From assembly GCA_029289235.1 (NCBI GenBank), contig JARFTZ010000052.1, forward strand, positions 84,512 through 148,511: DNA of 64,000 bases, written 5' to 3'. This DNA comes from Gammaproteobacteria bacterium. GTDB taxonomy: Bacteria; Pseudomonadota; Gammaproteobacteria; Burkholderiales; Rhodocyclaceae. Below are positions 29,983 to 37,788 of the stretch, piece by piece. Made by a program: the position numbers and the translations under genes. Under the pieces are notes generated by a model. That model was given only the letters and a program-made list of their open reading frames with translations. It was not told the origin of the DNA and searched no databases. Each line of letters starts with the position of its first letter. Positions within the stretch are counted from its first letter, which is position 1.

Positions 29983-31122
29983 TTAGCTGCGAATCCTGCG
30001 ACGCATTCCGAAACCAGCCGCAGCGAAGCCGAGGCCAAGCAGGGCCAGGGAATGTGGTTCCGGAACCTGCGTTGGCCCGACACCGCCGGCAATTCCGAAC
30101 TCTTCAAAACCATTCGTGTTGCAACCTTTGGTTGTTCCGAGCAAACCGGTTTCGACACCAAGTGGATTGCAACCGAGATTGACGGTTGCGACCCACAGGA
30201 AATCCGGGTTGAATAACGTCAGGTCCATGTCAGGTGCGTAGGCCATGAAATCAGGCTGTCCCGACCCCGTATTGTGGCTGCCGGAATAGGTTAGGCCGCT
30301 GTCCGTGACCCCAGCGCATCCTGTACCCGTCAGGGGGTTCCAAAGAGTGGTGCACTCGGCGGCGCTGGTGAACGTTATGTCGCCGAAATTATAGGTTGGT
30401 GCGTTTTGATCCCAAGCGTTGTTGGTCAAGGAATCAAGATCCCAGAATGCCACGGTGCTGCCGTCAGACGGGTCGATAATCCGCACTTGCGCGCTCATGA
30501 AGAGGGAATCTCCTGCACCGGTCTGATTGTAGTCCGCATATAGCACCGGAATGGTCCAGTCGGGATTGAACGACTGCAAGGCCGCCAAAAGTTCGCCGAC
30601 CGTGGAAGTCGTGCCTTGGTCGTCTGCTGGATCGCTGTAGCCTCCGGGGCTTATTCCTACTGTCTGCCAATAAGTTAACGACTGAGGGTCATTGCCCCAT
30701 TCGCCTACCCATCCCGTGACATTGTCGCCAGAACCTCCGAGATCCACAGGATCCTGAAGGTTGAAGTCGTTCGTAGCGCCGCCTGCGACGGACGTAAGAT
30801 TGACGACGATCGTGCCCGTGCCCGTGGAAAAGTCATACGTCCCAAACGTTGCTACCGGGAGCAGCGTTGGATTCACGGTCTGGATGGAGTCCAGAATTTT
30901 CGCGGAATAAGACCAGAAATCATCGTACTTGAACGCGATCGGGATACCGTCCATCAGGATTGCGTCCCTGTCAACGCCGTACGCGTCTTTGTATGTGCCA
31001 TAGATCGCGGTACTGTTGTCCGGCGTTGGCAGGACAAAATAAACCGCCTCTGCCATTCCAGAAGCGCCAAGGGAGAGCGCTGCGGTAATGGCCAATACTG
31101 AATTGCGTAACTTCGTTTTCAT
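29983..31122 (-). CDS. PEP-CTERM sorting-domain protein (379 aa)
   Basis: The start at 31122 follows GGAGGG. A signal peptide (about 1-26, ending GMAEA) leads into a Thr/Gly/Asp-rich, beta-strand-like body with four Cys in the last third. The tail is a classic PEP-CTERM signal: VPEPHSLALLGLGFAAAGFG, then an Arg cluster. Such proteins are processed at the inner membrane by exosortase and often end up in extracellular polymer or on the cell surface. No exosortase or EPS genes are in the window. The body matches no enzyme family I recognise. It diverges from a second PEP-CTERM gene, and one copy of the 18-base motif plus a possible sigma-54 site lie upstream. Confidence 0.88.
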   Translation of the reverse strand: MKTKLRNSVLAITAALSLGASGMAEAVYFVLPTPDNSTAIYGTYKDAYGVDRDAILMDGIPIAFKYDDFWSYSAKILDSIQTVNPTLLPVATFGTYDFSTGTGTIVVNLTSVAGGATNDFNLQDPVDLGGSGDNVTGWVGEWGNDPQSLTYWQTVGISPGGYSDPADDQGTTSTVGELLAALQSFNPDWTIPVLYADYNQTGAGDSLFMSAQVRIIDPSDGSTVAFWDLDSLTNNAWDQNAPTYNFGDITFTSAAECTTLWNPLTGTGCAGVTDSGLTYSGSHNTGSGQPDFMAYAPDMDLTLFNPDFLWVATVNLGCNPLGVETGLLGTTKGCNTNGFEEFGIAGGVGPTQVPEPHSLALLGLGFAAAGFGMRRRIRS

Positions 31123-31186
31123 GATGCGCCCTCCGAAGAGAAACATCGTTGAATTTTCTGGACGAGCCAGACGCTCAACACCACGC

Positions 31187-31200
31187 ATAAAATGCACCTG
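31187..31200 (-). promoter_or_regulatory. Possible weak sigma-54 promoter for the minus-strand PEP-CTERM gene
   Basis: On the minus strand AGGTGCATTTTATGC has the invariant GG and GC at exactly the sigma-54 spacing (10 bases between). The rest of the consensus is poor. It predicts a start near 31175 and a 53-base leader. Support comes mainly from the matched position of motif copy A. Confidence 0.35.
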
Positions 31201-31261: not shown

Positions 31262-31279
31262 CTGTAAAAAAATCCGACG
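31262..31279 (+). promoter_or_regulatory. 18-base motif, copy A (candidate enhancer site)
   Basis: CTGTAAAAAAATCCGACG matches copy B at 14 of 18 positions. It lies about 95 bases upstream of the predicted sigma-54 start site of the minus-strand PEP-CTERM gene, the usual distance for an activator of sigma-54 polymerase. Confidence 0.5.
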
Positions 31280-31343
31280 TTTTTTCTGAAGAGCACGGCT
31301 GTTGTTGCCAACAAAGCCAACTCCCTTTCTTGATCGGGGTGAC

Positions 31344-31361
31344 CTGTAAAGAAATTTGACA
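31344..31361 (+). promoter_or_regulatory. 18-base motif, copy B (candidate enhancer site)
   Basis: CTGTAAAGAAATTTGACA is itself an imperfect dyad (TGT-N11-ACA). With copy C it forms an inverted pair separated by 6 bases, centred about 121 bases before the predicted plus-strand start site. Confidence 0.6.
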
Positions 31362-31367
31362 GCTTTG

Positions 31368-31385
31368 TGTCGAAAATCTTTACAG
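31368..31385 (-). promoter_or_regulatory. 18-base motif, copy C (candidate enhancer site)
   Basis: Read on the minus strand this is CTGTAAAGATTTTCGACA, matching copy B at 15 of 18 positions. The outer nine bases of B and C (CTGTAAAGA and TCTTTACAG) are a perfect inverted repeat. It is centred about 97 bases before the predicted plus-strand start. Confidence 0.6.
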
Positions 31386-31447: not shown

Positions 31448-31463
31448 TGGCACTTATATTGCT
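31448..31463 (+). promoter_or_regulatory. Sigma-54 (-24/-12) promoter of the plus-strand PEP-CTERM gene
   Basis: TGGCACTTATATTGCT fits the consensus TGGCAC-N5-TTGC(A/T) at every conserved base. It lies 32 bases before the ATG at 31496 and predicts a start site near 31474. RpoN control of PEP-CTERM genes, through enhancer-binding proteins such as PrsR, is known from floc-forming betaproteobacteria. Confidence 0.85.
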
Positions 31464-31495: not shown

Positions 31496-32401
31496 ATGGG
31501 ATCCGCTAAACAACTTAAAAAGATCGCCGGCGCGGTTCTGGTGGGTATGTCTGCCGCAATCACTGCCTCCTCCGCCTTTGCCGGGACGGTGATGCTTCAA
31601 GAGTGCAAGACGAGCGATGTGCAGGTGACCGGCATTGCGCAGTACGACGGCACCAATGCGGGTGCCACGCTGGGTCCCGTCGTTCCTGTCAGTTCGCCGG
31701 CGGGGTATGCCGCCGCGTGCGTCGGCGCGTACTCGGGCAATGACCAGACGTACCCTGATACGAACCTCGGTTACTACGGTGATGGCTTGATGAACGGCGG
31801 CACGACCGGGCCGAGCGCCGGCAGCGTCCAGTTGTTCCCGAACGGTGTTTTCTCGGATCTCTACGTGTCGTCAGATCTTAATGGGGACAGTGTTCTCGAC
31901 CCCGGCTGGATCATGCTTGGGAAGTACGAGAATGGGGGGGTCAGCCCGGAATCGGTTGGTGATCTGAGTATCGTCCTGTCGAACTTTTTTACACTGACGA
32001 TGAATGCTGACGGGTATTCCGGAACCTGGGCGTTCACGCCGGATGCCGAGGTTGCGAAGCGTGCGGAACCGATTCTTGGAAAGAACTATTTCGATCAGTT
32101 CATGCTCGTCTTCAAGTCGGGCAATGCATGGGCGGCATACGATTTCACGGCCGAGCAGTTCGGGCTGCTTGATCCCTCGGCTGACGACCCGATCTACAAC
32201 TTCTTCGGGACATGGGATACGTCTGCAACGCTGCAGAACTGCAATGAGAACAAGGGTACCTGCAAGCCTTCCGGAATTTCGCACGTGACGCTGTATGCCC
32301 GCGATCCGGGGCCGGGCAACGATGTGCCGGAGCCGGCGTCGTTGGCGCTGCTCGGTCTCGGGCTGGTTGGCCTCTCAGTGGCCCGTCGCCGTCGCAGCTG
32401 A
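31496..32401 (+). CDS. PEP-CTERM sorting-domain protein (301 aa)
   Basis: The ATG at 31496 gives 301 residues with a signal peptide (about 1-30, VLVGMSAAITASSAFAG). The body carries five Cys and Gly/Asp-rich loops with no enzyme motif that I know. The C-terminus is a textbook PEP-CTERM signal (DVPEPASLALLGLGLVGLSV followed by ARRRRS). It should be exported, cleaved by exosortase outside this window, and released to the surface or matrix. A near-perfect sigma-54 promoter and an inverted pair of 18-base motifs precede it. It shares no clear sequence with the divergent PEP-CTERM protein apart from the sorting signal. Confidence 0.88.
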   Translation: MGSAKQLKKIAGAVLVGMSAAITASSAFAGTVMLQECKTSDVQVTGIAQYDGTNAGATLGPVVPVSSPAGYAAACVGAYSGNDQTYPDTNLGYYGDGLMNGGTTGPSAGSVQLFPNGVFSDLYVSSDLNGDSVLDPGWIMLGKYENGGVSPESVGDLSIVLSNFFTLTMNADGYSGTWAFTPDAEVAKRAEPILGKNYFDQFMLVFKSGNAWAAYDFTAEQFGLLDPSADDPIYNFFGTWDTSATLQNCNENKGTCKPSGISHVTLYARDPGPGNDVPEPASLALLGLGLVGLSVARRRRS

Positions 32402-36371: not shown

Positions 36372-36453
36372 TGTCTTTTTCAGGTGTTTGTTTTTTTTGC
36401 GTGGTATATCCTGTCGCGTCTCGGTTGTTTGGCAGGCGTTAATCGGTTGCGAC

Positions 36454-37788
36454 ATGGAAAAGATCGGCAAGTACGAAACCATTCGTGTATTGGGCAAAGG
36501 CGCGACGGCGGTCGTCTACCTGGCGCGCGATCCGGACAGCGGACGCGAGGTCGCGGTCAAACTGATCCGCTTTGGCGGCGATAACGCCGTGATGTCGCGG
36601 CGCTTGCGCAAGCTGTTCCAGATTGAAGGGGCGGTCGGACGACGTCTCGATCACCCGAACATCGTCAAGATCTACGACGCGGTCGTTGAAGACGATCAGG
36701 CCTACATCGTCATGGAGTATGTCGAGGGCAAGGCGCTCGACCAGTTTTGCGCGATCAATCGCTTGCTGCCGATGCACCGGGCCATCGGCATCATCTTCAA
36801 ATGCTGCCTCGCGCTCGACCATGCGTTCCGTCAAGGGGTGGTGCATCGGGATATCAAGCCGGCCAATATCCTGATTGACGCCGAGGACAATCCGAAGATC
36901 ACCGACTTCGGCCTTGCGCTGAACCTGCACAAGGACATGAACCGCGATTCCACGTTCATCATGGGGGTCGGCTCGCCAGCCTACATGTCGCCGGAGCAGG
37001 TCAAGAACTACCCCCTCAACCAGAAGACGGACCTCTATTCGCTTGGCGTCGTTCTGTTTCAGCTACTGACCGGGCGTTTGCCGTTCCGCGCGGCGAACCA
37101 TGGCGCGTTGATCTACAAAATCGTCAATATGGACACGCCGTCGGTTTGCGATCTCAATCCCAATCTTCCCGCCGGCCTCGATCCCATCATCAAGAAAGCG
37201 CTGGAGAAGGATCTTTACAACCGCTATCGCAACGGTGCCGAATTCGCCAAGGATTTATCGACGGTCCGCTATCAGATCTTCGACGACAACGCGATGAAGC
37301 AGGATGACCGGCATTTCGAAATGTTGCGGCAATTCGAGTTTTTCGGCGAATTCGAGGAGATCGAGTTGTGGGAGGTGCTCCGGATCAGCGTCTGGCGCGA
37401 GGTGGCGGACAAGGTGGCGCTGATTCGCGAAGGCGATTCCAACCGGGTCTTCGGGTTCATCGTCACAGGATTCGTCGAAGTCTCCATCGAGGGCAAGTCG
37501 CTGTGCCGGCTCGGCGCGGGGGAGGTAGTTGGCGAGATGGCGTATCTGCATCCGAGCGACACCAAGCGTTCCGCGTCGGTGGTGACGCTGGAGCCGACCC
37601 TGTTCCTCGAAATAAACAGCGCCGCGCTCGACCTGGCCTCCGAGGAACTTCAGGAACGTTTCCGCAAGGCGCTGATGACCACGCTGCTCGCACGCATGCG
37701 CGCCGCCGACAGGGCCTTGGCCAGATCCGGTCCGCCCGCCGTGCAGGGGCGCGGCATGGCCTGCGATCTGGAACTCGCGCCGCTGTAG
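36454..37788 (+). CDS. Ser/Thr protein kinase with C-terminal cyclic-nucleotide-binding-like domain
   Basis: From the ATG at 36454 the protein has 444 residues. The Hanks-type kinase domain (about 8-270) is complete: glycine loop LGKGATAVVYLA, Lys36 in VAVKL, catalytic HRDIKPAN (131-138), Mg-binding DFG (151-153), and GSPAYMSPEQ in the activation segment. A cNMP-binding-like domain (about 300-415) follows, with GAGEVVGEMAYLHPSDTKRS, which resembles the phosphate-binding cassette and ends in Arg-Ser-Ala as in true binders. No membrane segment is seen, so it is cytoplasmic. It is divergent from grpE. Nucleotide control of the kinase is inferred from architecture. Confidence 0.9.
   Translation: MEKIGKYETIRVLGKGATAVVYLARDPDSGREVAVKLIRFGGDNAVMSRRLRKLFQIEGAVGRRLDHPNIVKIYDAVVEDDQAYIVMEYVEGKALDQFCAINRLLPMHRAIGIIFKCCLALDHAFRQGVVHRDIKPANILIDAEDNPKITDFGLALNLHKDMNRDSTFIMGVGSPAYMSPEQVKNYPLNQKTDLYSLGVVLFQLLTGRLPFRAANHGALIYKIVNMDTPSVCDLNPNLPAGLDPIIKKALEKDLYNRYRNGAEFAKDLSTVRYQIFDDNAMKQDDRHFEMLRQFEFFGEFEEIELWEVLRISVWREVADKVALIREGDSNRVFGFIVTGFVEVSIEGKSLCRLGAGEVVGEMAYLHPSDTKRSASVVTLEPTLFLEINSAALDLASEELQERFRKALMTTLLARMRAADRALARSGPPAVQGRGMACDLELAPL

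Follow-up and report, generated by a model that had tools for sequence, protein, structure and literature searches.

Two genes for PEP-CTERM proteins diverge from a 373-nt intergenic region in which an 18-base motif occurs three times, and the question raised by this locus is which regulator would bind the three copies and which of the two genes each copy would serve. Here, we describe the copies, the two promoters and their counterparts in other genomes, starting from a window (the whole stretch of DNA analysed, 64,000 nt) in genome G000 (63 contigs, 3.81 Mb, 95% complete). Judged from sequence, the region very probably comprises a divergent pair of sigma-54 promoters, one for each PEP-CTERM (exosortase cargo) gene and both activated by PrsR, in which predicted binding of PrsR to copies B and C would activate the plus-strand gene, and to copy A the minus-strand gene, through short phased loops.

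The plus-strand gene (31496..32401, start at 31496) encodes a protein of 301 aa with a PF07589 score of 33.0 bits, and the minus-strand gene (29983..31122, start at 31122) encodes one of 379 aa scoring 30.4 bits (cut-off 20.7 for both). Copies A (31262-31279, plus strand), B (31344-31361, plus strand) and C (31368-31385, minus strand), as placed by the initial annotation, all have zero mismatches to the 18-mer CTGTAAARAWWTYYGACR. Each is also, as had been claimed, an imperfect TGT-N11-ACA dyad, and since the halves are unequal (TGTCG and TTTACA) a direction can be assigned to each copy. Written as directed 17-bp predicted PrsR boxes, A is CGTCGGATTTTTTTACA (31263..31279, minus strand) and faces the minus-strand gene, B is TGTCAAATTTCTTTACA (31345..31361, minus strand), and C is TGTCGAAAATCTTTACA (31368..31384, plus strand) and faces the plus-strand gene. 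B and C form the inverted pair originally described, 23 bp apart centre to centre. Elsewhere in the window, an ORF adjoining recQ (36388-37788, plus strand) encodes a protein with a protein kinase domain and, C-terminal to it, a domain that binds cyclic nucleotides (Pfam).

Five matches to the 18-mer at ≤3 mismatches were found in the window versus 0.61 expected (100 shuffles), and 52 in G000 (3 with zero, 0 with one, 4 with two and 45 with three mismatches), where A, B and C are the sole zero-mismatch matches and the next best carry two. These counts are partly circular because the consensus was derived from A, B and C themselves, and conservation was therefore taken as the independent test. 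As a genome probe the 18-mer was rejected as noisy (45 of its 52 matches have three mismatches), and the directional 17-mer, TGTCG-N6-TTTACA, performed better, with 7 exact and 23 one-mismatch matches. This directional core is exact in C and has one mismatch each in A and B, with the TTTACA end present in all three; at ≤1 mismatch it matches the 373-nt region three times, versus 0.013 on average and never more than 1 across 2000 dinucleotide-shuffled sequences. A further exact box lies inside the plus-strand PEP-CTERM gene (31977-31993, plus strand) and was rejected as a fourth site, having no sigma-54-like element (≤3 mismatches) at 40-94 nt.

A motif of this kind has been described (Haft et al., 2006; PMC1569441). 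In the available text of that report, motif 1 is a 17-nt element that ends in TTTACA, is sometimes repeated and is followed by a sigma-54 motif after an average of 62.8 nt (SD 10.6, range 32 to 92); it precedes 99 of 167 PEP-CTERM genes from Proteobacteria and was attributed to the sigma-54 activator PrsR by phylogenetic profile. By their letters, A, B and C fit the motif 1 of that text, with motif borders that may differ by a base or two. The window shares with the 2006 description a TTTACA-ending 17-mer with a sigma-54 element about 63 nt further on, PEP-CTERM genes downstream and more than one copy, and differs from the part available to us in having three copies between two divergent genes, two of them as an inverted pair. 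The spacers of A and C fall inside the 32-92 nt range, PF07589 genes lie on both sides, and PrsR, PrsK and PrsT are encoded in the genome. The mechanism put forward in the initial annotation thus appears largely right, but has been in print since 2006; what we add is a spacing rule and a reading of the B/C pair.

The predicted sigma-54 -24/-12 element of the plus-strand gene, TGGCACTTATATTGCT (31448..31463, plus strand), contains an exact TGGCAC-N5-TTGC at 31448-31462, which begins 63 nt from the end of C. The candidate element of the minus-strand gene, AGGTGCATTTTATGCG (31184..31199, minus strand), is degenerate, with 5 mismatches to TGGCAC-N5-TTGCW and GG and GC kept, and its GG-N10-GC likewise begins 63 nt from the end of A, in line with the matching distances first noted on the two sides; by arithmetic from the sequence, the predicted start points and the box centres are separated by about 97 bp. 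For copy B, no GG-N10-GC was found at 40-91 nt in its own direction. The minus-strand promoter is a degenerate match whose assignment is supported by a position conserved in one relative, G002, where CGGCATAGTCATTGCT occupies the same aligned columns as AGGTGCATTTTATGCG.

Orthologs were sought in 59 genomes, own included. The minus-strand protein has three other full-length orthologs, in G002 (76% identity), G018 (56%) and G027 (54%), and each is preceded by an exact box, with a spacer of 63 nt in G002 and G018 and 64 nt in G027. In a four-way alignment, the box and promoter of G002 share columns with those of the window with no gap between the two sequences, while those of the more distant G018 and G027 lie outside the window's columns, so that the support from these two is one of spacing and not of alignment. 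The plus-strand protein has two orthologs, one in G002 with a box at 74 nt and one in G006, where the only candidate is a 3-mismatch box that lies 95 nt ahead of a good element. Functionless repeats, arisen by chance or through low complexity, would suit the A+T-rich N6 core and the three of seven exact genome matches that lie inside ORFs without a sigma-54-like element, but such an origin is scarcely credible given the excess of copies over the shuffled sequences and the conservation of the box in orthologs at a fixed spacing.

The own genome encodes one RpoN, and in profile searches PrsR (744 bits, curated cut-off 502.6), PrsK (864, cut-off 300) and PrsT (907, cut-off 312) were found clustered together with an XrtA-type glycosyltransferase. 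PrsR combines a receiver domain with one for sigma-54 interaction and an HTH of the Fis type. Across 99 genomes, own included, the box with promoter was present in 40 and PrsR in 39, with both in 34, the motif only in 6, PrsR only in 5 and neither in 54 (Fisher p 3.5e-15, relatedness ignored). Three of the five PrsR-only genomes (G013, G015, G021) have a box in the 77-107 nt range, and in the other two (G437, G438) the exact pattern is absent from both spacer ranges searched. Four of the six motif-positive genomes without PrsR over the cut-off are 70-84% complete, and in another, G037, the single match equals a single control match. The last, G039, belongs to the same order, is 96% complete and has 7 box-plus-promoter matches with no PrsR over the cut-off; it may have a diverged PrsR or use another activator.

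G039 would also be accommodated if the boxes were bound by another NtrC-family activator instead of PrsR, as would the 17 further ORFs of the own genome that match the PrsR model at E < 1e-79, none of them above its cut-off. Such a substitution is very unlikely in view of the co-occurrence across the 99 genomes and of the published phylogenetic profile, which, in the text available, points to PrsR (PMC1569441). The initial proposal of sites for one PrsR-like sigma-54 activator is accordingly supported as a prediction, with PrsR itself the most likely candidate: PrsR, PrsK, PrsT and RpoN are all encoded, and the boxes stand at PEP-CTERM promoters. No report of PrsR binding to this box was found in the literature searched. 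The nearest studied gene is pepA of Aquincola tertiaricarbonis, described in the available text (PMC9850573) as a PEP-CTERM gene with a start mapped at a -24/-12 promoter, dependence on rpoN1 and a predicted upstream enhancer; it differs from the present locus in being a single gene. The same text calls dependence on PrsK-PrsR probable, and reports that a plasmid with prsK or prsK-prsR failed to restore flocs in a mutant of the epsB2 region (PMC9850573).

Searching the genome for the motif upstream of sigma-54 sites and listing the genes downstream, the check proposed at the outset, showed a box (≤1 mismatch) with a downstream GG-N10-GC at 5 of the 7 PEP-CTERM genes found in the own genome. 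The spacers are 63 nt for both window genes, 63 nt for the gene on contig C61, 64 nt for C42 and 84 nt for C46; the C42 promoter overlaps the longest ORF reading, so the start of that gene probably lies further in. The suggestion of an exosortase-cargo regulon is not a new idea, having been published in 2006 (PMC1569441, available text). At the remaining two genes, C27 has no box within 3 mismatches in the stretch scanned, and C60 has upstream only a 3-mismatch box, 74 nt before a 3-mismatch promoter element. An exact box does occur inside the C60 PEP-CTERM coding sequence (C60:82498-82514).

Of the 30 genome matches at ≤1 mismatch, six sit in these five promoters. Among the other 24, 21 overlap an ORF (≥90 aa) and have no sigma-54-like element (≤3 mismatches, 40-94 nt), and two overlap an ORF and have such an element (at 58 and 53 nt), which is probably a chance occurrence. 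Two of the three exact matches that lie inside ORFs without an element are in PEP-CTERM genes. The one remaining match is intergenic (C56:33283-33299; L120:484-500), with an exact box and CGGCGTTTTTCTTGCT at 64 nt, before a 115-aa ORF that has no Pfam or NCBIfam match. This ORF is a possible PrsR target outside the PEP-CTERM genes.

The distance between box and promoter was then considered over many genomes. Among the 150 matches listed for a first spacer range, 86 have spacers of 61-65 nt (24.2 expected), 36 have 72-75 nt (19.4 expected; this cluster is clipped by the end of the search range) and 21 have 51-54 nt (19.4 expected, p 0.38), with only 2 matches in the trough of 55-60 nt and 1 in that of 66-71 nt. 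The 51-54 nt cluster is not above uniform by itself, and it is the empty gaps that make the pattern. G039 contributes its 7 matches to the tally by genome and none to the matches listed. A prediction for a second range (77-107 nt) was set down before 396 genomes were searched. Among the 150 matches listed there, the predicted peaks held 64 matches at 82-86 nt (24.2 expected) and 29 at 93-96 nt (19.4 expected, p 0.017), and the predicted troughs, which held only partly, 12 at 77-81 nt (24.2 expected, p 0.003) and 18 at 87-91 nt (24.2 expected, p 0.10). The last trough is shallow because the prediction used a period of 10.5, while the observed peaks, at 85 and 96, come later (about 11).

The clusters have means of 52.2, 63.0, 73.7, 85.0 and 96.4 nt, and the 300 matches listed give a period of 11.05 (95% 10.90-11.25, genomes resampled). 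With one match per genome the median R was 0.82 (n=39) and 0.50 (n=71), values that none of 20000 null draws reached, and with one fetched locus per genome in the second range the signal was weaker (R 0.38, p 0.014, n=30); these phase tests and the uniform tests above take a null uniform over the scanned range, and include rows from related genomes with relatedness ignored. A third sample was drawn with TGGCAC from GTDB genomes whose record titles span alpha-, beta- and gammaproteobacteria as well as Desulfuromonadales. Among the 80 of 119 stretches listed, 65 of 74 rows fall at comb positions versus 31.0 expected, with six rows titled as non-proteobacteria set aside and a Nitrospira-titled record kept (68 of 80 for all rows). 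When all 119 stretches are considered, the proportion is 46 of 48 where a PEP-CTERM-like ORF lies downstream; the ORF test is a rough pattern, positive at 16/30 and 15/30 fetched loci, and in this wider scan it was positive at 48, negative at 50 and undecidable at 21 of the 119.

A period near 11 bp agrees with the helical repeat that looped DNA is reported to have in living bacteria, about 11 bp per turn (PMC8501960, available text). LuxO-regulated Vibrio qrr and synthetic NtrC enhancers, in the available text of PMC4740811, are likewise sigma-54 enhancers with loop lengths that cluster about 11 bp apart; they differ in their activator, in their loops of about 80 to 120 bp and in their sampling (61 enhancers from one genus). 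By analogy with the qrr enhancers, the spacing comb would reflect a short, helically phased DNA loop. An 11-bp spacing rule for PEP-CTERM promoters was not found in the literature searched: the 2006 report, in its available text, gives a mean spacer and SD (62.8, 10.6) and no helical comb (PMC1569441), and a term search of the available text of a sigma-54 regulon comparison (PMC12316311) did not find PEP-CTERM named.

At the observed period of 11.05 bp, B is separated from C by 2.1 turns and from A by 7.4 turns. Boxes placed back to back within 30 nt of each other were found in 2 of the 399 genomes sampled within the order (the congeners of the ortholog comparison lay outside this sample), one of these being the window's own. 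Among 60 loci fetched from the 300 matches listed, none has a reverse copy within 300 nt upstream and one has an extra forward copy; in the wider scan, 2 of 119 loci have a reverse copy within 200 nt and 3 have an extra forward copy. With reverse-directed copies this rare (0/60, 2/119, 2/399), an inverted pair as a common design was rejected. One of the 119 loci, L203, has a reverse copy at exactly -23, the geometry of B and C. A PEP-CTERM ORF lies downstream of this pair, and none of the ORFs listed on the opposite side is of the PEP-CTERM type. The record for L203 is titled as a Nitrospira MAG, so that box, pair and PEP-CTERM ORF occur there outside the Proteobacteria of the 2006 motif report (PMC1569441, available text); misbinning or transfer is possible.

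From the near-integral B-C distance and this one recurrence, we infer that B and C are a dimer pair on one face of the DNA serving the plus-strand gene, and by position B probably pairs with C. B may instead be a second, distal box of the minus-strand gene, which B faces: the available text of Haft et al. reports occasional repeats of motif 1 (PMC1569441), and the G002 minus-strand ortholog has two exact boxes that face the same way at a distance of 284 nt. This alternative is doubtful, since B lies 145 nt from the minus-strand promoter and out of phase with A, yet close to two turns from C, and since at a single gene in L203 two inverted boxes show this 23-nt offset too.

The initial annotation had gone further in proposing one enhancer module common to both genes, in which a single PrsR complex on A, B and C would serve both promoters and couple or alternate their firing. 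The three sites do fall within 124 bp, the spacers are equal on both sides, and the centres of A and C are 105 bp apart, which is 10.0 turns at 10.5 bp per turn. At the period found here, however, that distance is 9.5 turns, with A and B out of register as well, and the B/C geometry recurs in L203, where no divergent PEP-CTERM ORF accompanies it. In G002, the plus- and minus-strand orthologs lie on different contigs (1.5 kb of flank read for each), each with its own boxes, so that the divergent order is not kept and the units would work apart. Each promoter of the window has a directed copy to itself, at the usual distance, sharing is therefore not needed, and B fits best with C; a shared module is accordingly unlikely, and this part of the proposal was not upheld.

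Under the preferred reading of two separate promoters, PrsR, whose gene shares a polysaccharide-type locus elsewhere in the genome with those of PrsK and PrsT, would be phosphorylated by PrsK and would use its Fis-type HTH to bind the 17-bp boxes, presumably in dimeric form. The assembly on B and C would contact sigma-54 polymerase at the plus-strand promoter and that on A would contact it at the minus-strand promoter, with the intervening DNA, about 63 bp in each case, bent into a short loop, and the two genes would be co-regulated in this way. Such a loop would be too short for free twist, so that box and promoter would be held in a fixed helical register. We lean towards the broader view that PrsR enhancers follow a helical ruler (about 52, 63, 74, 85 and 96 nt; period about 11 bp) across Proteobacteria, that the window places two such loops back to back, and that the inverted dimer pair B/C, with its 23-bp offset, forms a stronger enhancer unit of a distinct kind.

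The comb makes a sharp prediction, that spacer changes of 11 bp would be tolerated and changes of 5 bp would not. Checking the spacer should sharpen calls of exosortase-cargo regulons compared with the motif alone, and a regulatory site predicted in 2006 gains a direction, a spacing and partners.
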